DNA from: Desulfomicrobium sp.
Lineage (GTDB): Bacteria > Desulfobacterota > Desulfovibrionia > Desulfovibrionales > Desulfomicrobiaceae
Assembly (NCBI GenBank): GCA_024709365.1
Contig: JANJWV010000116.1
Coordinates: 1 to 41,582, forward strand
Reading direction: 5' to 3'
Length of the DNA: 41,582 bases
Shown here: in pieces, positions 30,787-39,882 of the stretch
Layout: each line of letters opens with the position of its first letter
Numbering within the stretch: position 1 is the stretch's first letter
Notes under the pieces: model-generated
Database searches by the model: none
What the model was told of the DNA's origin: nothing
The model's input: only the letters and a program-made list of their open reading frames with translations
Program-made: the position numbers and the translations under genes

Positions 30787-31206
30787 CTAGTTGTACTCGT
30801 TCATGGCCGCGTCGGCGTAGGTGTCCTCGAGGACTTTGCGCAGACGGAAGGCGCCTTCGATCATGGGGGCGAGTTTGGGCAGGCCGTCGATCTTGTCGAC
30901 GTAGCTGAAGGCGCCCAGGACTTCGCCCATGCGGCGGGTCTCTTCGCTGCCGTGGCCGGTGAAGAGGACGACCTGGATCTTGGAGTTGATCTCCTTGATG
31001 CGCTTCAGGGTCTCGATGCCGTCGATGCCGGGCATCTCGATGTCCAGGACCACGACGTCGTAGTTACCCTTCTTGACCATTTCCAGGGCATCGTCGCCGG
31101 TGTGGGCCACGTCCGGGGAAATGCCGTACAGGATATTCAGACGGTCGGCGAGGATCCGGCACAGATCCTTCTCGTCGTCCACGATCAGCAGCTTCATCTT
31201 GTTCAT
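30787..31206 (-). CDS. Single-domain response regulator
   Basis: A 139-residue receiver without output domain, last gene of the ten-gene minus-strand unit. D10/D11 in LLIVDDEKD, phosphorylation site D55 in VVVLDIEMPGIDG and the Lys in SYVDKIDG are present. The last 15 residues are a helical extension (RKVLEDTYADAAMNEYN). It overlaps the receiver-kinase gene by four bases (ATGA) and has GGAGGAG in front, so it is well translated. It may be the phosphate sink or the final target of the relay. Confidence 0.92.
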   Translation of the reverse strand: MNKMKLLIVDDEKDLCRILADRLNILYGISPDVAHTGDDALEMVKKGNYDVVVLDIEMPGIDGIETLKRIKEINSKIQVVLFTGHGSEETRRMGEVLGAFSYVDKIDGLPKLAPMIEGAFRLRKVLEDTYADAAMNEYN

Positions 31207-32375
31207 ATGTTCTCCTCCTTGGCAGATGCCGGACTTCCCGGCCCGTTGTTTTCGTTGTGCGCATGCACGGCCATGGGCACCCGTATGGTGAAGGTCGACC
31301 CGCGCCCAGGGGAGCTGCGCACGGTGATGCTCCCTCCCATGGCCTCGATGATGCCGTGGCAGATTGCCAGCCCCAATCCAATCCCCTTGCCCACCTCCTT
31401 GGTGGAGAAAAAGGGTTCGAAAATTCGCGTCAGCAGATGCTCCTCGATGCCGCAGCCCGTGTCCCGGACCGCGACCTCCAGACCGCCGTCCCGGAAGACT
31501 CCCGTCAGGGTCAGGACGGGCGCGTCGTGCCCTTCGGGATCCGCCGCTTTCATGGCCTCCACTGCGTCGAGGGCATTGTCGATGACGTTGGCCAGGACCT
31601 GCCCCCATTCCGACTCCGGAATTTCCATGGCGCACAGGGCCGGGGCCCACTCCTGGCCGACCTCCACACCCAGGGCTTCGATCCGCTCACGGCGCTCGTC
31701 GAGGAGCCTCCCGGCCAGGATCGGCAGCTTCGTCCTCGCACCCTTGGCGTCGAGTGCGCAGCGCAGCGTCAGCAGCTTCGCGGTGATGGCCTTGCAGCGC
31801 CTGGCCTGGTGCCGGATCAGGTCGAGGGATGTCCGCATTTCCGAGCGGTTGGCCTCGGTCAGGTCCGGCTCGTGCAGGATTTCCTCGATCCAACCGGCTT
31901 CGCTGATCATGACCTGCAGGGGGTTGTTGATCTCGTGGGCCACCCCCGTGGCCAGTTCGCCCATGGCCGCCAGCTTGGCCGTTTCGGCCATGCGTTGCCT
32001 GGAGAGGGCCTCCATATGCCGCCCTTCGGCGTCCCCGATGGCCGAAACCAGCGTGTCGATGTCGGCGGGCTTGGTCAGGTAGTCCCTGGCTCCGCTCTTC
32101 ATGCCGGCCACGGCCGTGTTCAGGGTCGAGTCGGCCGTGAGCAGGATGACTTCAGGCCCCGACCTGTCGCTCTTGAGTGCGCCGAGGGTTTCCAGGCCGC
32201 TCATGCCCGGCATGGTGATGTCGAGGATCACGACTTCGGGGTGAAGCTCGCGCGCCATCTCCAGGGCCTGCTCCCCGCCGTAGGCCGTGTGCACCTCCAT
32301 GCCTCTGGCGCGCAGCCTTTCGGACAGCAGATCCGCGAAATCGCGTTCGTCGTCGACCACCAGGACATGGACCAT
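31203..32375 (-). CDS. Receiver-histidine kinase hybrid
   Basis: A 390-residue cytoplasmic protein with an N-terminal receiver (D8/D9, phosphorylation site D52 in VVILDITMPGMSG, Lys in YLTKPAD) followed by a coiled linker, a HisKA domain with H147 in GVAHEINNPLQVMI and a HATPase domain (VIDNALDAVEAM, DTGCGI, GKGIGLGLAICHGI). A receiver in front of a kinase lets one phosphorylation event control a second kinase. It comes seven bases after the receiver gene at 32382. Confidence 0.93.
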   Translation of the reverse strand: MVHVLVVDDERDFADLLSERLRARGMEVHTAYGGEQALEMARELHPEVVILDITMPGMSGLETLGALKSDRSGPEVILLTADSTLNTAVAGMKSGARDYLTKPADIDTLVSAIGDAEGRHMEALSRQRMAETAKLAAMGELATGVAHEINNPLQVMISEAGWIEEILHEPDLTEANRSEMRTSLDLIRHQARRCKAITAKLLTLRCALDAKGARTKLPILAGRLLDERRERIEALGVEVGQEWAPALCAMEIPESEWGQVLANVIDNALDAVEAMKAADPEGHDAPVLTLTGVFRDGGLEVAVRDTGCGIEEHLLTRIFEPFFSTKEVGKGIGLGLAICHGIIEAMGGSITVRSSPGRGSTFTIRVPMAVHAHNENNGPGSPASAKEENI

Positions 32376-32381
32376 CAGAAC

Positions 32382-32762
32382 CTACCTTCCGGGAACGTGT
32401 CCCTGCGTCACCGTGCGGATGCTGTCGAGCAGATCCTCGATGTCCAGGGGCTTCTTGTGATAGCGGGCCGCGCCGAGATTCTGGCAGGCCTCGAAATCCT
32501 GGTCCGAGCCGTGGCCGCTGAGCATGATGACGGGCAGGCCGGGCCATTCGCCGCGGATGCGCCGCAAGGTCTCCAGGCCGCTCATGCCCGGCATGCGCAG
32601 GTCCAGCACGACCACGTCCGGGGGGTCCTGCGCGATCATGACCAGTCCGCTCTGGCCGTCCAGGGCGACCCTGGCAGTGTAGCCCCGCATTTCCAGGCGC
32701 TCCTGGAGCGTGGTCACAAAGGCCTCTTCGTCGTCGATAAGCAGAATGTTCAGGGCGTCCAT
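32382..32762 (-). CDS. Single-domain response regulator
   Basis: A 126-residue receiver with D10/D11 in LLIDDEEAF, phosphorylation site D54 in VVVLDLRMPGMSG and Lys in RYHKKPLDIEDLL. The ATG at 32762 is the only one before the domain. It lies five bases after the ChpT-like gene and is its probable partner in phosphotransfer. Confidence 0.9.
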   Translation of the reverse strand: MDALNILLIDDEEAFVTTLQERLEMRGYTARVALDGQSGLVMIAQDPPDVVVLDLRMPGMSGLETLRRIRGEWPGLPVIMLSGHGSDQDFEACQNLGAARYHKKPLDIEDLLDSIRTVTQGHVPGR

Positions 32763-32767
32763 GGCTT

Positions 32768-33400
32768 TCAATCCTGACGTGAAACGGGGAAGAAGATTCT
32801 GAGCCGCGAGCCGTCCCACTCCATCCGGCCCTGTTCGAGCAGCGCGTCCAGATCGGACAGGCCGGACAGGTCCGGCGTGGTCCCGATGGGGGGCGCGACG
32901 TTCAGGACGTGGAACTCGGGCCCTTCGTCTATCGCGAGGCGGATCACACAGTCCTTGGCGCCTTCCCCCACGGCCCACTGCACGGCCCTGAAGCCGGCCA
33001 TGAGGACCCAGATGGCGCCCACGGCCACCGGCAAGGCCCTCGCTGCCGGAGTGAACTCCACGGACGCCCCCTTGAGGCGCACCATGCGTTCGGAAAGCAG
33101 GGCCAGGGTCCGGGCGTGCACGCCCAGGTCGCACGATTCGAGCATGTCCGCATCGGCGGAGTGGGCCAGGCGGCTGGTCGCTTCCAGCAGCCCCTTGCCG
33201 CGGTCGACCTGGGACGAGATATGCCCGAGGGTACGTTCCAGGGTGGGCTTGTGCTTGAAGTCCACCCTGGCGTTGACCTTCATGATGTCGCCCAGCAGCC
33301 CCGCCGACTCTCGGATGATGGCCAGGATGTTCTGCATCTCGTGCATGCTCATGGCCGTGACCGATCCCATGAACCGCGTTTCGCGAGCGACTTCAGGCAT
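32768..33400 (-). CDS. ChpT-like histidine phosphotransferase or kinase-like dimer
   Basis: A 210-residue protein. An H box MSMHEMQNILAIIRESAG with H20 and a following helix (RTLGHISSQVDRGKGLLEATSRLAH) form a kinase-type dimerisation and phosphotransfer domain. The C-terminal half (about 95-205) has the length of a HATPase domain but lacks the N box and the DxGxG and GxGLG motifs, so it cannot bind ATP in the usual way. This plan fits ChpT-type phosphotransferases, which pass phosphate between receivers. Flanked on both sides by single receiver genes and overlapping one by eight bases, it is the natural middle step of a relay. I call the function inference. Confidence 0.7.
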   Translation of the reverse strand: MPEVARETRFMGSVTAMSMHEMQNILAIIRESAGLLGDIMKVNARVDFKHKPTLERTLGHISSQVDRGKGLLEATSRLAHSADADMLESCDLGVHARTLALLSERMVRLKGASVEFTPAARALPVAVGAIWVLMAGFRAVQWAVGEGAKDCVIRLAIDEGPEFHVLNVAPPIGTTPDLSGLSDLDALLEQGRMEWDGSRLRIFFPVSRQD

Positions 33401-33785
33401 GTTTCGTTCCTTCGCCGGCGGCGACAGCTTCCGAAAGGGTGCGGATGAGCTCCTCGATGTCGAGGGGCTTCATCAGGTACGCGAAGGCGCCGTGGCGCAT
33501 GCCGTCGATGCCGTCGCGGGTCTTGCCCTGGCCCGTCAACAGGATGACCTGCACGGAGGGGTGCTGCTCCCTGACGCGCTGCAGGACTTCGATGCCCTTC
33601 ATGCCGGGCATCATCATGTCGAGCACCATGACGTGCGGCTCGTCTTCGTTCACGGCTTTCAGCGCCGATTCCCCGTCGTGGGCCACGCGGGCGGCGATGC
33701 CCCGGAGATCGAGCCGTTCGGCCAGGGTGGTCACGAATTCGACCTCGTCATCGACCAGCAGGATGTTCCACTCGTTCGTATCCAT
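33393..33785 (-). CDS. Single-domain response regulator
   Basis: A 130-residue receiver: D12/D13 in LLVDDEVEF, phosphorylation site D56 in VMVLDMMMPGMKG, T in LLTGQGK and Lys in YLMKPLDIEELI. It lies four bases after the membrane kinase gene and overlaps the ChpT-like gene by eight bases, so it is probably the first receiver of the relay. Confidence 0.92.
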   Translation of the reverse strand: MDTNEWNILLVDDEVEFVTTLAERLDLRGIAARVAHDGESALKAVNEDEPHVMVLDMMMPGMKGIEVLQRVREQHPSVQVILLTGQGKTRDGIDGMRHGAFAYLMKPLDIEELIRTLSEAVAAGEGTKHA

Positions 33786-33789
33786 ATCG

Positions 33790-35505
33790 TTACCCTTCCA
33801 CGGAGCGTTTGGGCAGCAGGATGGTCATGGTCGTACCCTCGTTCAGCTTGGTCTTGACCTGAATCTCGCCGCCCAGTCGTTTGACGATGCCGTAGGTGAT
33901 GGACATGCCCAGCCCCGTTCCTTTTTCCTTCTTTGTGGTGAAGAACGGCTCGAACATGTTCTTGGCGGTCTCTTCGGACATGCCGCAGCCGTTGTCCTGG
34001 ACCGAAACCCCGATGAAATCCTCGCTCTCGTCCCACGACCTGATGACGATCTGCCCGCCGTCGGGCACCGCCGCCAGGGCGTTGTTCAGAATGTTCAGGA
34101 AGACCTGCTGGATCTGGCCGTGATCCGTGGGGATCTGCGGGAGGTTGTGGGCCAGCTCTCGTTTGAGCTCGACATTGCGGTACTGCGCCTCGCGTTCCAG
34201 GAAGCCCAGCGTCTCCACCAGGACCGTGTTCACGTCCAGGACCTCGATCTTGACGTCCATGCGCTTGGCGAAGCTGAGCATGCGGTGCGTGATGCCCCGG
34301 CAGCGGTCCACGGAGCGCAGGATGGCCTCGATCTGACGTCCGAACTTGTCCTTGTCCGGGAAGTCCGGGCGCAGGTTCATGATGTCGCGCATGAGCCCGG
34401 CCTTCTCGTTGATGATGGCCAGGGGGTTGTTGATCTCGTGGGCCACGCCTGCCGCCAGGCGTCCGATGGAGGACAGCTTCTGGGAGTGCTCCATCTGGTG
34501 GATGGCGCCCATGCGCTGCTCGTCGCTCTCCTGCAGCCGCGAGATCAGCAGGCTCGTCACTCTGTAGACGGCCAGGAAAATGAGGATGACGCTCGAGACG
34601 AAGATGAAGAGCAGATCCAGGCGCACCGTGTACCACGTGCTGAAGGCCGTGGGCTTGGGCTTCACGGCGACCAGGGCGAAGTCCGTGTTGGCGATGAAGG
34701 CCGAGGCGATGAAGTTGTCCTGTCCTTTCTGGTCCCGGATCGACTGGACGTTCGATTCGAATCCGGTCGACGGCAGATCGAAGGGCAGGATGTCGAGCAC
34801 CTTGCCGTAGCGGCGTGATTCCGTCTGGAGGATGCCGCTTCGGTTGACCAGGAATGCGTCGCTGCCCGGCTCCAGTCCCATGGCCGAAATGATGCGGTCG
34901 AAGTGCATGGTGTCGAGGGTGGCCCGGAGAATCCAGGACCGGCCGCTTTCCGTGGTGTGCCGCACGGCGATGACCACGTGGGGGAACTTGCGGAAGCCCA
35001 GGAACACGTCGCTGACGTAGGTGCCCTTGAACTGGACCTGGTGGAACCAGGGCTGTTCGGTGTAGTTGCGGCCCTTGAGGTCGTACGGGCCGGCATAGCT
35101 GAGCTGGTTGCCGGCGACGTCGATGAGGCCGAGGTCCACGAAACCGGTGAACTCCCTGCGCATGACCTGGAAGATGCGCTGCAGGTTGGCGTCGTCGGAC
35201 AGTTCGTCGAAGGAGTAGGCCGAGGCGATGAAGCTCACTGCCGAGGTGCGCTCGGCCAGGAACAGCTCGAAGGAGTGCTTGGCCTTGCCCACCAGCGCCC
35301 GCAGGGGGGCCTGGATCTCGGCCGCCATGGTGTTCTGGTGCTCGTAGTAGTTGAGCCCGGCCAGGGACAGCAGGGGAATCAGGGTGACCAGCGCCATGAG
35401 CGAGACGATCTTGCGCCGCAGGAGATTGTATCGCCTGGGCGAATTGATGTCCGTGCCGATGTCGGCCTTGATGATGTTGATGGGTGCGGACAGGATGCTC
35501 TTCAT
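33790..35505 (-). CDS. Membrane sensor histidine kinase with dCache domain
   Basis: A 571-residue inner-membrane kinase. Transmembrane helices at about 33-53 and 297-319 enclose a roughly 240-residue periplasmic part (AYSFDELSDDANLQRIF, VDLGLIDVAGNQLSYAGPYDLKGRNYTEQPWF) typical of dCache ligand-binding domains. In the cytoplasm a HisKA domain has H356 in GVAHEINNPLAIINEKAG and a HATPase domain has ILNNALAAVPDGG, DNGCGMSEE and GTGLGMSI. It is the only member of the operon able to sense an external signal. ATG at 35505 overlaps the NifX-like stop by four bases and has GGGGAG in front. Confidence 0.93.
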   Translation of the reverse strand: MKSILSAPINIIKADIGTDINSPRRYNLLRRKIVSLMALVTLIPLLSLAGLNYYEHQNTMAAEIQAPLRALVGKAKHSFELFLAERTSAVSFIASAYSFDELSDDANLQRIFQVMRREFTGFVDLGLIDVAGNQLSYAGPYDLKGRNYTEQPWFHQVQFKGTYVSDVFLGFRKFPHVVIAVRHTTESGRSWILRATLDTMHFDRIISAMGLEPGSDAFLVNRSGILQTESRRYGKVLDILPFDLPSTGFESNVQSIRDQKGQDNFIASAFIANTDFALVAVKPKPTAFSTWYTVRLDLLFIFVSSVILIFLAVYRVTSLLISRLQESDEQRMGAIHQMEHSQKLSSIGRLAAGVAHEINNPLAIINEKAGLMRDIMNLRPDFPDKDKFGRQIEAILRSVDRCRGITHRMLSFAKRMDVKIEVLDVNTVLVETLGFLEREAQYRNVELKRELAHNLPQIPTDHGQIQQVFLNILNNALAAVPDGGQIVIRSWDESEDFIGVSVQDNGCGMSEETAKNMFEPFFTTKKEKGTGLGMSITYGIVKRLGGEIQVKTKLNEGTTMTILLPKRSVEG

Positions 35506-35855
35506 GCGGACTCCCCGGCCCGGTCGAAAAGAATGTCCCCCGCCTTGAGCTCGCCTGCGGCCAGACGTGGGATGACGCGCTCCAGGGGACCCATGACCGA
35601 GTCGATCACTTCGATGCGTTTCCAGCGCAGATAGTGGAAGTACTCGTCCTCGATCCCTCCGCAGACGATGGTCCCGACATCCCTGGACAGGGCCAGGTCG
35701 CACAGTTCGTCCCCGGAGGCGTCGGCCAGCAGGAAGGACTTCCTCTGGACGATTTCCCCACTCTCCGAAATGGACAATAGCAGGGCTTCCTTGGTCAGGT
35801 CAAAGCGTGGGGCGACTTCGTCCCTGGCGATGGCGATGAGCACTCTTCGTTCCAC
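35502..35855 (-). CDS. NifX/NifB-fold small protein
   Basis: A 117-residue protein of the small cofactor-binding fold: RRVLIAIARDEVAPRFDLTKEALLL at the start (strand-loop with PRFD), ELCDLALSRDVGTIVCGGIEDEYF in the centre and VIDSVMGPLERVIPRLAAGELKAGDILF at the end. It resembles the 2923 protein in the central VGT-I-CG segment and the GPLERV/GDLERV element. It overlaps the dCache kinase gene by four bases and follows the AAA+ protein by two, so it is tightly tied to the signalling proteins. Metal-cluster binding is possible, not shown. Confidence 0.78.
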   Translation of the reverse strand: MERRVLIAIARDEVAPRFDLTKEALLLSISESGEIVQRKSFLLADASGDELCDLALSRDVGTIVCGGIEDEYFHYLRWKRIEVIDSVMGPLERVIPRLAAGELKAGDILFDRAGESA

Positions 35856-35857
35856 TG

Positions 35858-37090
35858 CTAGTTCCCTTCCGCGCTCTTGCGCGGGGCCTTGCGGGCCTTT
35901 TCTGCCGGACGTGGGGCCGGTCCGGTGCCGGCGAGATCCACCAGATGGCCGGGGAGATGGCCGGTCCGGATGGTGTCCCCGGGGCAGACCATGGCCGCAA
36001 ATTCCATGATGTTCCTGAGTTCGCGGACGTTGCCCGGGAAGTCGTGTTCGCTGACGATGCGCAGGGCCCTGGGGCTGATGCCGGTTATCTGTTTCTTGAA
36101 GCGGGCGGCGTACTGCGACATGAAATGGTGCAGCAGGAAGCCCAGGTCCTCGCCGCGGTCCTTGAGTCGCGGAAGGTGCAGGCGGATGGCCGAGATGCGG
36201 TGGAAGAGGTCCTCGCGCAGACGCCCCTCCCGCACGAGCCTTTCCGGCGACTCCGCCGTGGAGACCATGAGCCGGGCGTTGACCCGCACGGGTTTGGTCG
36301 CCCCCACGGGCAGCACGGTCCCTTCGTCCAGGAACTGCACCAGCCTGCTCTGATGCGGCAGGGGCAGGTCCGCGATCTCGGAGAGGTAGAGCGTGCCGCC
36401 GTGGGCCTGCTGGAAGCGGCCGGGCTTGAGTTCCCCTTCTGCCGCCTGGATCCGCCCGAAGAGCTCCGCGTCCAGCAGTTCCGAGGGCATGGGGCCGCAG
36501 CTGAAACGGATGAAGGGTTCGCGGGACCTGTGGGAGGCCTTGTGCACGGATTCGGCCAGGAGATCCTTGCCCGTGCCGGTTTCCCCGGTGATGAGCACCG
36601 GGGAGTCATGCTGCGCGATGACCGGCACGAGGTTCAGGATTTTCTGCATGGCCTGGCTGCGGCCGATGATCTGGCCCTGGCCCGTGGCCTGGGACAGGCG
36701 GGACTCGATTTCGCGCAGGGCGGTCAGGTCCTCGACGATGTCCAGAATGCAGACCGGCCTGTTTTCGCCGTCCCGGACGCGCACTGGGGTGATGCGCACC
36801 GGGATCTTGCGGTGGTGCCGGTTGATGCAGTCGGTTTCGATGCCCTTGTCCGGCCCGTCCTCGCGCCCGTGGGGGCAGCCCTGGATGCAGGCGCGGCTGC
36901 GCAGGACATGCCTGCACGGCAGGCCGCGCACCTCGTCCCGGCTGTAGCCGGTGAGCGCTTCCAGGGCCTTGTTGAGCATGAGAATCCGCCCGCCGCCGTC
37001 CAGCAAGGCCACGCCCATGGGCAGGCCGTCGAGGAGGGACGGCAGGTCCGGACACTCGCCGCGGACCAGATCTTCGATGCGTTTCAGCAC
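35858..37090 (-). CDS. Degenerate sigma54-activator-like AAA+ protein with four-cysteine PAS
   Basis: A 410-residue protein. The PAS domain (about 15-130) has C59, C68, C72 and C88, the same C-x8-C-x3-C-x15-C spacing as in the 1420 activator. Walker A GETGTGKD (169-176) is intact, but the sigma54-contacting GAFTGA loop is gone (FGRIQAAEGELKPGRF at 211-226), the Walker B Asp is Ser (LYLSEI, 234-239), and the C-terminus after about 385 is a Pro/Lys-rich tail without a Fis helix-turn-helix. Arginine-finger region LREDLFHRIS is kept. It can hardly activate sigma54 in the normal way and more likely acts as a nucleotide-dependent switch or inhibitor. It sits inside a sigma54-promoted operon next to a NifX-like gene. 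Confidence 0.9.
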   Translation of the reverse strand: MLKRIEDLVRGECPDLPSLLDGLPMGVALLDGGGRILMLNKALEALTGYSRDEVRGLPCRHVLRSRACIQGCPHGREDGPDKGIETDCINRHHRKIPVRITPVRVRDGENRPVCILDIVEDLTALREIESRLSQATGQGQIIGRSQAMQKILNLVPVIAQHDSPVLITGETGTGKDLLAESVHKASHRSREPFIRFSCGPMPSELLDAELFGRIQAAEGELKPGRFQQAHGGTLYLSEIADLPLPHQSRLVQFLDEGTVLPVGATKPVRVNARLMVSTAESPERLVREGRLREDLFHRISAIRLHLPRLKDRGEDLGFLLHHFMSQYAARFKKQITGISPRALRIVSEHDFPGNVRELRNIMEFAAMVCPGDTIRTGHLPGHLVDLAGTGPAPRPAEKARKAPRKSAEGN

Positions 37091-37102: not shown

Positions 37103-37522
37103 CTAGTGCGCGCCGCCCCCGACGATGCCGGATGCGGCAAAGCAGAGCACGAGGACTTCCAGCAGGGAGATGATGGCATAGGCCATGTCCTTCTTCTTCA
37201 GGTAGGCGAAGATGACCGGAATGTAGCAGACGATGGTCAGGCCGCCCAGCAGCGCGATGCCGAGGAAGTTCAGGAAGTCGCCCTTGTTCAGGAGGGTCGC
37301 CCAGCCCCAACCGGTCGGCACGTTGTTCTGGGTCAGGTATTCGCCCACGGGCTGGGACCAGAACTTGGTCACCAGGTCCATGGAGACGTAAGGGTCCATG
37401 ATGCCGGTGACGTACAGGGCGTACGTCACGATCATGAGGGCCAGGCCGCTCCAACACCCGTAGAAGAGGATGTTGGCGTAGGCGATCTGTTCGGCCGGGG
37501 CGTTGGTATCGGGTCTGTTCAT
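37103..37522 (-). CDS. Small integral membrane protein (DUF1634-like) paired with TauE
   Basis: A 139-residue protein with three hydrophobic segments (about 17-40, 82-103 and 112-132), the first preceded by AEQIAYANILFYGCWSGLALMIVTYALYVTG. The pattern resembles DUF1634 membrane proteins, which often lie beside TauE/SafE exporters. It starts 25 bases after tauE with GGAGAAC and is probably an accessory subunit. The family call is from pattern only. Confidence 0.65.
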   Translation of the reverse strand: MNRPDTNAPAEQIAYANILFYGCWSGLALMIVTYALYVTGIMDPYVSMDLVTKFWSQPVGEYLTQNNVPTGWGWATLLNKGDFLNFLGIALLGGLTIVCYIPVIFAYLKKKDMAYAIISLLEVLVLCFAASGIVGGGAH

Positions 37523-37547: not shown

Positions 37548-38534
37548 TTAGAAGCCGAGGCCCTTGGCCAGTGCCTTGCCGCCCGCGAAGAGCAGGACGC
37601 CGATGACCATGTAGCGGATGAAGGCCGGCTTGGCCTTGGCCAGCAGGCGCACGCCCACGAAGGAGCCCATCATCAGGCCGATGATGGAGGGGATGGCCAT
37701 GAGGGGGATGACGCAGCCCTGGTTCAGGTAGACCCAGGCGGCGGAGGTGTCGGTGATGGACAGCAGGAACTTGCTGGTGCCGACGGCGACCTTCAGCGGC
37801 GCGCCCATGAGCAGGTTCAGGACCGGGACGTTGGCCCAGCCGGCGCCGAGGCCGAACATGCCGGCCATGATGCCGATGATGATGAAGAGCAGCAGGCCCG
37901 GCAGGGTGCGGTGGGTCTTCCACTCGACGACCTCGCCGTTGGCTTCCAGGTATGCGCCCTGGATGCCCAGAGCCAGGCCCAGGGCGTCCTGCTTGGTGAC
38001 CACGGGACGGGCCGTGTTCTTGGAGGTCAGCAGGAGGATGGCGATGCCCATGATGGTGCCGCCCAGGCAGATCTGGACCACGTTGCCCGGCAGGGCCAGG
38101 CCCAGGAAGGCGCCGACGATGGCGCAGCTGGAGGCGATGAGCGCCACGGGCAGGGCCAGACGAAGGCTTGCGAGGTTGCGCTTCAGGAGACCAGGTCCGG
38201 CGGCCAGGGCTCCGGCCAGGGCGACGAGCAGGCCCGCGCCGCGCACGAAGTCGAGGTGGAAGGGGAAAAACCCGCTGACCAGGGGCACGAAGAGCACGCC
38301 GCCGCCGACACCGGCCAGTACGGCGATGATGCCGAGCACGAAGCAGAAGAAGAGCAGGATCGTCGGCCATGCCCACCACGGCATGGAGGACGGGGCTCCC
38401 GTCGCTTCGGCCATCTGTTTGGCCGCTTCATTGGCGATATCGGTGTTGTTGTCGGCCCAGGCCAGAGTTGCCAACAGGAGCGCGGCCAGTCCGACCCCTC
38501 CCAGAATTCGCATCCACGTTTTGTTCAGTTTCAT
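37548..38534 (-). CDS. Sulfite exporter TauE/SafE-family permease
   Basis: A 328-residue membrane protein. The first helix (MRILGGVGLAALLLATLAWA) may be a signal or anchor, followed by about 35 periplasmic residues and then eight to nine helices with the family motifs GVGGGVLFVPLV and GLGAGWANVPVLNLLMGAPLKVAVGTSK. TauE/SafE proteins export sulfite, sulfoacetate or other small anions; in a sulfate reducer a sulfur anion is a likely but unproven cargo. It is longer than the usual 250-270 residues because of the N-terminal part. ATG 38534 follows GACAGG; a sigma54 promoter lies 84 bases upstream. It heads the ten-gene unit. Confidence 0.9.
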   Translation of the reverse strand: MKLNKTWMRILGGVGLAALLLATLAWADNNTDIANEAAKQMAEATGAPSSMPWWAWPTILLFFCFVLGIIAVLAGVGGGVLFVPLVSGFFPFHLDFVRGAGLLVALAGALAAGPGLLKRNLASLRLALPVALIASSCAIVGAFLGLALPGNVVQICLGGTIMGIAILLLTSKNTARPVVTKQDALGLALGIQGAYLEANGEVVEWKTHRTLPGLLLFIIIGIMAGMFGLGAGWANVPVLNLLMGAPLKVAVGTSKFLLSITDTSAAWVYLNQGCVIPLMAIPSIIGLMMGSFVGVRLLAKAKPAFIRYMVIGVLLFAGGKALAKGLGF

Positions 38535-38617
38535 TCCTGTCTCTCTCCAGTTTACACGGTTCCTTGCCTGAAATTTTGCCATACCACGATGCGAAGCGCA
38601 TTCGGTCCCCCTATATC

Positions 38618-38632
38618 GCAAGGAGCATGCCA
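38618..38632 (-). promoter_or_regulatory. Sigma54 promoter of the tauE operon
   Basis: Minus strand TGGCATGctccTTGC matches TGGCACG-N4-TTGC with one mismatch. GG (-24) is at 38631-38630 and GC (-12) at 38619-38618, exactly ten bases between. Start would be near 38606, leaving a 72-base leader before the ATG at 38534. An activator gene is divergent to it and matching palindromes lie upstream. Confidence 0.8.
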
Positions 38633-38802: not shown

Positions 38803-39882
38803 ATGTCGAAAAATCGAGGTGTTGGCTCAGAATCCAGCCTCCGCGAGCATCCGGTTTCCCCCGGCAGGAAATTGCCGAACGCTGCCGGCGAGCTCGAGGC
38901 GGAGATCCTCGAACTCGGGACCGAGGAGGGGCTTGGCAAGTTCGTGATCCAGTCGCGGGCCATGCGCGATCTCTATCGCCTGGCCATGCAGGTGGCCGGA
39001 TCAGATGCCACCATCCTGGTCTACGGCGAGTCCGGCACGGGCAAGGAGCTTTTCGCCCGCCTCGTGCACCAGCTCTCGGGCCGTCGCACCAGACCGTTCA
39101 TCCCCGTCAACTGCGGCGTGCTCAAGGGGGAGCTGTTCGCCGACAAGTTCTTCGGCCACGAGGCCGGGGCCTTCACCGGGGCCCAGCGGCAGCGTAAGGG
39201 CAGCTTCGAGATGGCCGCCGACGGGACGCTGTTTCTGGACGAAGTCGGCGAGATTCCGCCCACCAACCAGGTCGATTTCCTGCGCGTGCTGGAAGAAAAG
39301 ACCTTTCGTCGCCTGGGCGGGGAGAGGACGCTGCCCTTCGACGCGCGCATCGTGGCCGCCACCAACCGCGTGCTGCACAAGATGGTCTCGGCCGGCGAGT
39401 TCCGGGCCGACCTCTACTACCGCCTGAACGTCATCCCCGTGACCCTGCCCCCCCTGCGCGAACGATCCGACGACATCCCGCCCCTGGCCGAGTACTTCCT
39501 GGCCATGTACCGCCACCGCTACCACAAACCCGACATCCGCCTCGCCCCGGCCACCCTGGCCACCCTGTGCAAGTACTCCTGGCCCGGCAACGTCCGCGAA
39601 CTCAGGAACCTCATGGAGCGTCTGGTGCTCCTGACTGCCGACAACGTTATCGAGCCGGGGCACCTGCCCCTGGAAATGCGCATCGCCACGGGCCTGCCCG
39701 CCGTGGAGTGCGGCCAGGGCGTCATGACCCTGGAGGCGGCCGTGCGCCAGGCCGAGGTGGCCGCCATCGTACGCGCCTGGGCCGAGGCCGGGGGCAGCAA
39801 GGCGAGATTGGCCGAGATCCTGGCCGTCAGCCCACGCACCCTGCGCTACAAGCTGGCCGAGTACGAACTCAAGCTGAACTGA
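38803..39882 (+). CDS. Sigma54-dependent activator without sensory domain
   Basis: A 359-residue enhancer-binding protein with only a 45-residue N-terminal part, no receiver or PAS. AAA+ domain: Walker A GESGTGKE (75-82), intact GAFTGA (122-127), Walker B GTLFLDEVGE, arginine fingers in FRADLYYRLN. A Fis-type helix-turn-helix (GGSKARLAEILAVSPRTLRYKLAEYEL) ends it. ATG 38803 is chosen for AGGAAAG; the longer frame from 38695 covers the palindromic control DNA. Divergent from the tauE operon and next to its sigma54 promoter, it is the probable activator, controlled by level or by a partner protein, perhaps the degenerate AAA+ protein of that operon. Confidence 0.92.
   Translation: MSKNRGVGSESSLREHPVSPGRKLPNAAGELEAEILELGTEEGLGKFVIQSRAMRDLYRLAMQVAGSDATILVYGESGTGKELFARLVHQLSGRRTRPFIPVNCGVLKGELFADKFFGHEAGAFTGAQRQRKGSFEMAADGTLFLDEVGEIPPTNQVDFLRVLEEKTFRRLGGERTLPFDARIVAATNRVLHKMVSAGEFRADLYYRLNVIPVTLPPLRERSDDIPPLAEYFLAMYRHRYHKPDIRLAPATLATLCKYSWPGNVRELRNLMERLVLLTADNVIEPGHLPLEMRIATGLPAVECGQGVMTLEAAVRQAEVAAIVRAWAEAGGSKARLAEILAVSPRTLRYKLAEYELKLN
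38862..38877. promoter_or_regulatory. Third palindromic site, inside the activator gene
   Basis: CGGCAGGAAATTGCCG differs from the perfect site at one base. It lies in the first codons of the activator gene (residues 20-25), about 264 bp from the tauE start point, which is still within reach for a looping activator. Confidence 0.45.

Follow-up and report, generated by a model that had tools for sequence, protein, structure and literature searches.

Introduction

Activators of the sigma54 type usually, if not universally, carry a C-terminal Fis-type HTH, and in the PspF-PspA system a sensorless activator lies divergent from its target operon, in which the control protein is encoded. The locus described here, found in a 41,582-nucleotide stretch of Desulfomicrobium sp. 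DNA (the window), has the same gene layout, with a sensorless activator that we call EBP2 divergent from an operon encoding a second protein, EBPq; but PspA is unrelated to EBPs, while EBPq is itself an EBP relative, in a degenerate form. EBPs without the GAFTGA motif usually act at sigma70 promoters (PMC3162934, PMC10274813), and some of them work without ATP hydrolysis (PMC10274813). TyrR, DhaR, HupR, VpsR and the NtrC proteins of R. capsulatus and Caulobacter resemble EBPq in having an EBP-derived AAA+ domain whose sigma54 loop is missing or altered; however, they bind DNA as transcription factors, whereas EBPq has no recognisable DNA-binding domain. A GAFTGA-less Caulobacter NtrC with a mutated, DNA-binding-defective HTH raises transcripts of FlbD/sigma54 promoters (PMC12421884), and such proteins can thus affect the promoters of another EBP.

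Paralogous EBP pairs are also known, including HrpR/HrpS, FleQ/FleT and VnfA1/VnfA3 (PMC9542535), and FleT is encoded in the operon that its partner activates (PMC7277832). In these pairs paralogous EBPs act jointly at one promoter, and FleT, as EBPq would be, is made from the activated operon; yet each member of a pair is described as a sigma54 activator, whereas EBPq lacks the sigma54 loop and carries a sensory PAS domain. Precedents exist separately for EBPs lacking GAFTGA, for EBPs lacking a DNA-binding domain and for hetero-oligomeric EBPs, while in the literature searched we found no described conserved clade that lacks the loop, the Walker B Asp and the HTH together, with the replacement adjacent and the intermediates alive.

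Apparent counterparts of the locus have been published from Desulfovibrio vulgaris Hildenborough, where the TSUP-type operon DVU2957-DVU2967 has a sigma54 promoter, a divergent EBP without sensory domain (DVU2956) and an internal one-component EBP with a GAFPGA motif (DVU2960) (PMC4641369). In EMSA, the region upstream of DVU2957 was bound by DVU2956 and not by DVU2960, the function of which the authors left open (PMC4641369). An effect reported for DVU2956 in Desulfovibrio vulgaris is a reduction of biofilm formation (PMC8586430), and DVU2958 groups with a conserved clade of TSUP transporters regarded as putative sulfate transporters (PMC5840216). Judged by synteny and motif from the published description, DVU2956 would be the counterpart of EBP2 and DVU2960 that of EBPq. 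DVU2960 is indeed like EBPq in operon layout, and its GAFPGA type is that of the earliest branch of the clade called class A below; this type, however, keeps the HTH and a full-length loop, both of which the window EBPq has lost. The protein used in the EMSA is of the GAFPGA type, which has kept the HTH as placed by the tree, and this counts against the partnership of EBPq with EBP2 considered below.

EBPq lacks the sigma54 loop, the Walker B aspartate and the HTH

The EBPq reading frame (Table 1) was confirmed as a 410-aa ORF with a GTG start. It matches the Pfam families PAS (E 4e-10), Sigma54_activat (PF00158, 3e-48) and AAA_lid_14 (1e-21), with no match to HTH_8, while the divergent EBP2 matches PF00158 at 9e-64 and also has HTH_8. 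The stretch of EBPq between ELF and RF reads GRIQAAEGELKPG, which is unrelated, about three residues short when compared to intact relatives, and contains no GAFTGA. In an AlphaFold model built with 46 relatives as input (mean pLDDT 84) the AAA+ core is ordered and the tail disordered (pLDDT around 40). The best Foldseek matches of the model are the AAA+ domains of NtrC1, ZraR, LuxO, FleQ and PspF, several isolated AAA+ domains scoring a target-normalised TM near 0.9.

Table 1. Position of EBPq, its motifs and the neighbouring features in the window.
Feature	Position	Strand	Remark
EBP2, divergent intact activator	38803..39882	+	GAFTGA, Walker B DE, HTH_8, no sensory domain; ORF start also given as 38695
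Predicted sigma54 -24/-12 promoter TGGCATGCTCCTTGCG	38617..38632	-	upstream of TauE
TauE/SafE (TSUP) transporter	37548..38534	-	first gene of the operon
DUF1634-like small membrane protein	37103..37522	-	PF07843 below cut-off
EBPq, degenerate EBP	35858..37090	-	PAS, sigma54-type AAA+ and lid; no GAFTGA, Walker B Asp or HTH
EBPq PAS domain	36716..37045	-	residues 16-125, with Cys59, Cys68, Cys72; Pfam
EBPq Walker A GETGTGKD	36563..36586	-	residues 169-176, Lys is K175; motif reading
EBPq L1 loop position	36419..36457	-	residues 212-224, GAFTGA absent
EBPq Walker B GGTLYLSEI	36374..36400	-	residues 231-239; Asp replaced by Ser237, Glu238 retained
EBPq arginine-finger segment GRLREDLFHRIS	36191..36226	-	R292 and R298
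EBPq sensor II segment GNVRELRN	36011..36034	-	R356
EBPq Pro/Lys-rich tail	35861..35935	-	residues 386-410, where the HTH would be
NifX-like protein	35502..35855	-	PF02579 below cut-off; directly downstream of EBPq
dCache sensor histidine kinase	33790..35505	-	EBPq operon
Single-domain response regulator	33393..33785	-	EBPq operon
Operon protein with weak HisKA-like (DHp) start	32768..33400	-	no Pfam family at cut-off
Response regulator	32382..32789	-	EBPq operon
Response regulator - histidine kinase hybrid	31203..32375	-	EBPq operon

Among the 39 PF00158 matches in the source genome only two, both marginal, score below EBPq, and a GAFTGA-like motif together with a Walker B DE was present in all 24 other EBPs of this genome read by motif scan (the DE of one, L008, being taken from its printed segment). 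EBPq has the PF00158 match, Walker A, arginine fingers and sensor II Arg of a sigma54 activator, and lacks the GAFTGA loop, the Walker B Asp-Glu and the C-terminal Fis-type HTH. Nor does it correspond to the GAFTGA-less sigma70 EBPs of the TyrR/VpsR type, which have lost the loop but kept the DNA-binding domain, because in EBPq the HTH is lost too. It belongs instead with the DVU2960-type group of TSUP operons (class A), as it lies beside TauE, has a sensorless EBP encoded divergently and falls in the common clade; DVU2960 itself is placed there from its published description (PMC4641369). Pfam and motif reading therefore bear out the original prediction, that the three features are gone while the Walker A and arginine-finger regions persist: EBPq no longer has the parts on which a sigma54 activator or an HTH regulator depends, and it retains its PAS, Walker A, lid and sensor II. 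The sigma54-activator label assigned by domain search is almost certainly wrong for the whole class A clade.

Within the genus Desulfomicrobium, EBPq orthologues are present in 12 of 15 other genomes, in addition to the window, and missing from two small complete genomes and one that is 63% complete. Every orthologue that was read shows the same losses, dN/dS within the genus is 0.06-0.19 over the gene, and relaxation is confined to the tail, joined by the loop in the closest pair. EBPq is thus kept by purifying selection, and strain-specific decay is ruled out by the dN/dS values and the conservation of the losses. In agreement with the reuse that had been proposed, no intact GAFTGA and HTH was found in the sister species, that is in the 12 other genomes of the genus with an orthologue.

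The motor features were lost in sequence

We searched 297 genomes of the order and fetched 70 loci, of which 49 form class A (50 rows with the window) and 21 form class B. Class A spans 13 genera of one order, with open frames throughout, and is a single clade within the A+B group (ultrafast bootstrap 100, SH-aLRT 97) in a tree built without the columns of the loop and Walker B. Its operon reads TauE, DUF1634-like protein, EBPq, NifX-like protein, dCache kinase, response regulator, DHp-like protein, response regulator and response regulator/histidine kinase hybrid, with an intact EBP2 divergent from TauE. Class B loci have an EBPq-like gene followed by a NifX-like gene and are without EBP2, and no neighbour was detected in them with the window TauE as query; where the transporter was checked, the class B genes mostly adjoin sodium:sulfate symporter or TauE genes, the checked neighbour of L199 being an Mrp antiporter. 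The NifX-like gene lies directly downstream of the EBPq or EBPq-like gene in 70/70 loci, and the NifX-like protein is probably the oldest partner of EBPq. In a class-level search for homologues outside the order, the matches listed come from this order only. Scanning genome contigs with EBPq gave three close matches (72-80%) followed by generic EBPs at 30-44%, two of which (L034, L045) were read through the motor and have GAFTGA and DE.

The class B proteins (L159-L163, L181, L183, L194-L204, L222-L224) are PAS-type EBPs with an HTH and an unusual ATPase site, and they are apparently still functional activators.

GA[FY]TGA is absent from all 50 class A rows, and the Walker B Asp from the same 50 and from 21/21 class B proteins, in which Thr or Ala takes its place, while class B retains GAFTGA in 20/21 and HTH_8 in 21/21. 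As Thr-Glu or Ala-Glu occurs in all class B proteins, which keep the HTH, the Walker B Asp had most likely been lost already when the two classes diverged. The earliest class A branch, comprising one genus, has GAFPGA, a Walker B Thr-Glu and HTH_8; other class A lineages have GAFPWA, GSYPWA or GAAPWA and no HTH; and in the remaining ones, including the window, the motif is gone without trace. HTH_8 is found in 6 of the 46 class A members scanned and absent in 40, a figure that the six GAFPGA proteins of 497-506 residues account for. The intermediates in class B and early class A indicate that the losses were sequential: as read from the sequences, the Walker B Asp went first, then GAFTGA became GAFPGA with the HTH still in place, then the loop and the HTH were lost. 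The suggestion that all three disappeared at once does not hold, since relatives with GAFTGA and the HTH in place already lack the Walker B Asp, and simultaneous loss is ruled out by these surviving intermediates. The range of living forms (GAFTGA, GAFPGA, GAFPWA, none) makes the order of loss testable.

EBP2 accompanies every evaluable class A locus

A divergent EBP2 is present in 48/48 evaluable class A loci and in 0/21 class B loci, the sole class A locus not evaluable (L217) being cut by a contig end. Whole-genome searches of 44 genomes gave the same picture, EBP2 being found in class A genomes and never in a genome with class B alone. In one class A locus (L191, genome G293) EBP2 is split into two frames, hence the lack of a whole-genome match, and EBPq is intact; the split is either an assembly error or a real frameshift. 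EBP2 has arginine fingers, the HTH and no sensory domain, with GA[FY]TGA and the Walker B DE in 48/48 sequences readable by the scan (L217 is without the gene end and L193 was unmatched).

One class B locus, L198, carries on one strand a TauE gene (5e-31), a 146-aa membrane protein, a PAS-EBP with GAFTGA and HTH, NifX, a kinase and a response regulator, and EBP2 was absent from its genome in a whole-genome search. This layout is likely the ancestral arrangement, and a TauE operon with a GAFTGA- and HTH-containing relative but without EBP2 suggests that replacement by EBP2 took place. The simplest history would be that the PAS-EBP activated its own operon, that EBP2 came and took over, and that the PAS-EBP was demoted yet kept.

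Upstream of the window TauE a sigma54-like site is predicted 83 bp before the start. Window-wide such a site is not significant, with 9 two-mismatch sites found versus 19 expected; comparable sites recur ahead of TauE in many relatives, although not every one of them is significant by itself, and support for the prediction comes from its position and this recurrence.

Class A keeps the nucleotide site and the PAS domain while the motor drifts

The Walker A Lys is invariant in 71/71 rows (50 class A, 21 class B) and the sensor II Arg in all 50 class A rows. The Walker B Glu is kept in 44/50 class A rows, with Asp in the other six, and the first and second arginine fingers in 40/50 and 43/50, while class B retains all five residues in 21/21. 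Concomitantly, the column entropy of the L1 loop, sensor I and arginine-finger segments is higher in class A than in class B, and the PAS domain and first lid segment (305-330) are as conserved in class A as in class B, or more. We infer from this pattern that EBPq still binds nucleotide and a partner and need no longer drive a motor; it suggests that nucleotide binding is kept and that hydrolysis is dispensable in some lineages.

In one genus (L174, L175, L178, L179, L212, L213) the Walker B Glu of EBPq is replaced by Asp, which implies that normal hydrolysis is lost there. In another (L184, L185, L188, L190, L214, L215, L220), both arginine fingers are lost and Walker B reads FFPE, with Walker A kept.

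Cys59, Cys68 and Cys72 of the PAS domain are present in 46/50, 45/50 and 43/50 class A rows and in 21/21 class B proteins. The conservation of all three cysteines throughout class B and in most class A rows, together with the sodium:sulfate symporter or TauE genes next to most class B genes where checked, makes sulfur or redox status a reasonable guess for the signal, although their loss in several class A lineages means that a Cys-based cofactor would not be universal. For the same reason we discarded an Fe-S PAS sensor by analogy with OrpR.

EBPq as a candidate regulatory partner of EBP2

Our preferred reading, held with moderate confidence, is that in these sulfate-reducing bacteria EBPq is a demoted activator of a TSUP (sulfur/anion) transporter operon, kept as a nucleotide-binding regulatory partner of EBP2 that carries a PAS domain. 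EBP2 would have taken over the activation job of this former PAS-type activator and would switch on the operon from which EBPq is made; EBPq would bind nucleotide and the NifX-like protein, its PAS reading a cytoplasmic signal, perhaps redox or metal, and would regulate EBP2 in trans, likeliest by joining or capping the EBP2 AAA+ rings as a loop-less subunit. The outcome would be negative feedback on EBP2, relieved by the signal; a control gene inside the operon that it controls favours this sign, which is uncertain, co-activation being the alternative. The partnership is favoured because EBP2 is an output without a sensor and EBPq a sensor without an output, because the two lie side by side and stay together throughout the order, and because paralogous EBPs are known to form mixed assemblies (HrpRS, FleQ/FleT, VnfA1/A3; PMC9542535). 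The original prediction of a nucleotide-responsive switch tied to the divergent activator is accordingly supported as likely by the exceptionless co-occurrence and by a Walker A that stays invariant while catalytic residues drift. Against the partnership, the co-occurrence is confined to one clade and is effectively one event, and cotranscription with a histidine kinase and response regulator set offers EBPq other possible partners; the loss of PAS cysteines in several class A lineages and the GAFPGA type of the protein used in the EMSA also count against it.

The main rival, which we regard as unlikely but clearly ahead of the others, is built on those partners: EBPq would act mainly via the NifX-like protein and/or the kinase-response regulator set (or the transporter), as a post-translational nucleotide or redox switch that never touches EBP2. 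Adjacency to NifX is indeed older and stricter than linkage to TauE or EBP2, and the set of histidine kinase, response regulators, DHp-like protein and hybrid is conserved in the operon; left unexplained are the coincidence of loop loss with EBP2 and the fact that EBP2 has no sensor at all. Rather improbable is a co-activator role, in which EBPq would enter EBP2 rings in a signal-dependent assembly needed for activation, as with FleT or HrpR. FleQ/FleT and HrpR/HrpS are precedents, and EBPq sits in the activated operon as FleT does (PMC7277832), but a subunit lacking the GAFTGA loop, and in some lineages also the catalytic Glu or the arginine fingers, would add little to the motor.

We give very little credence to the idea that EBPq is a regulator of the sigma70 type, as are TyrR, VpsR and Rhodobacter/Caulobacter NtrC, or that it binds nucleic acids non-specifically through its basic tail. 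GAFTGA-less EBPs do usually work at sigma70 promoters (PMC3162934, PMC10274813) and 35/44 tails have a net charge of +3 or more; against this stand the absence of HTH_8 from 40 of the 46 class A members scanned, the low conservation of the tail, which is neutral or acidic in most members of one genus, and an operon promoter that DVU2960 left unbound in EMSA (PMC4641369). As positive charge is not universal across the tails, the tail was rejected as a replacement DNA-binder. Slow decay of a redundant activator heading for loss is the least credible of all, for although three motor features are gone and two small genomes of the genus lack the gene, those two lack EBP2 as well, and the low dN/dS, the open frames in 13 genera and the invariant Walker A and sensor II speak against it.

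If the partnership of EBPq with EBP2 is true, it shows how evolution can split an activator into sensor and output parts on separate genes. It would then explain how the sensorless DVU2956, with its reported effect on biofilm (PMC8586430), gets its signal, and would link that switch to the conserved TSUP transporter DVU2958, placed among putative sulfate transporters (PMC5840216). More tentatively, and with rather less confidence than we place in the partnership itself, class A may represent a conserved class of ex-activators: EBP paralogues that have shed both the sigma54 loop and DNA binding and now act on the AAA+ ring of a different EBP, either as subunits that read a signal and bind nucleotide or as poisons. 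Such proteins would be an in-house equivalent of NifL or PspA made out of the activator, with its intermediates in living genera.

Two other products of the operon deserve mention. In the NifX/orange-protein-like protein (35502-35855), Arg17-Phe18-Asp19 and Cys52 are invariant. The protein encoded at 32768-33400 has 210 aa, is conserved across the order with only a weak match to HisKA (E 0.13), and may be a phosphotransfer protein.
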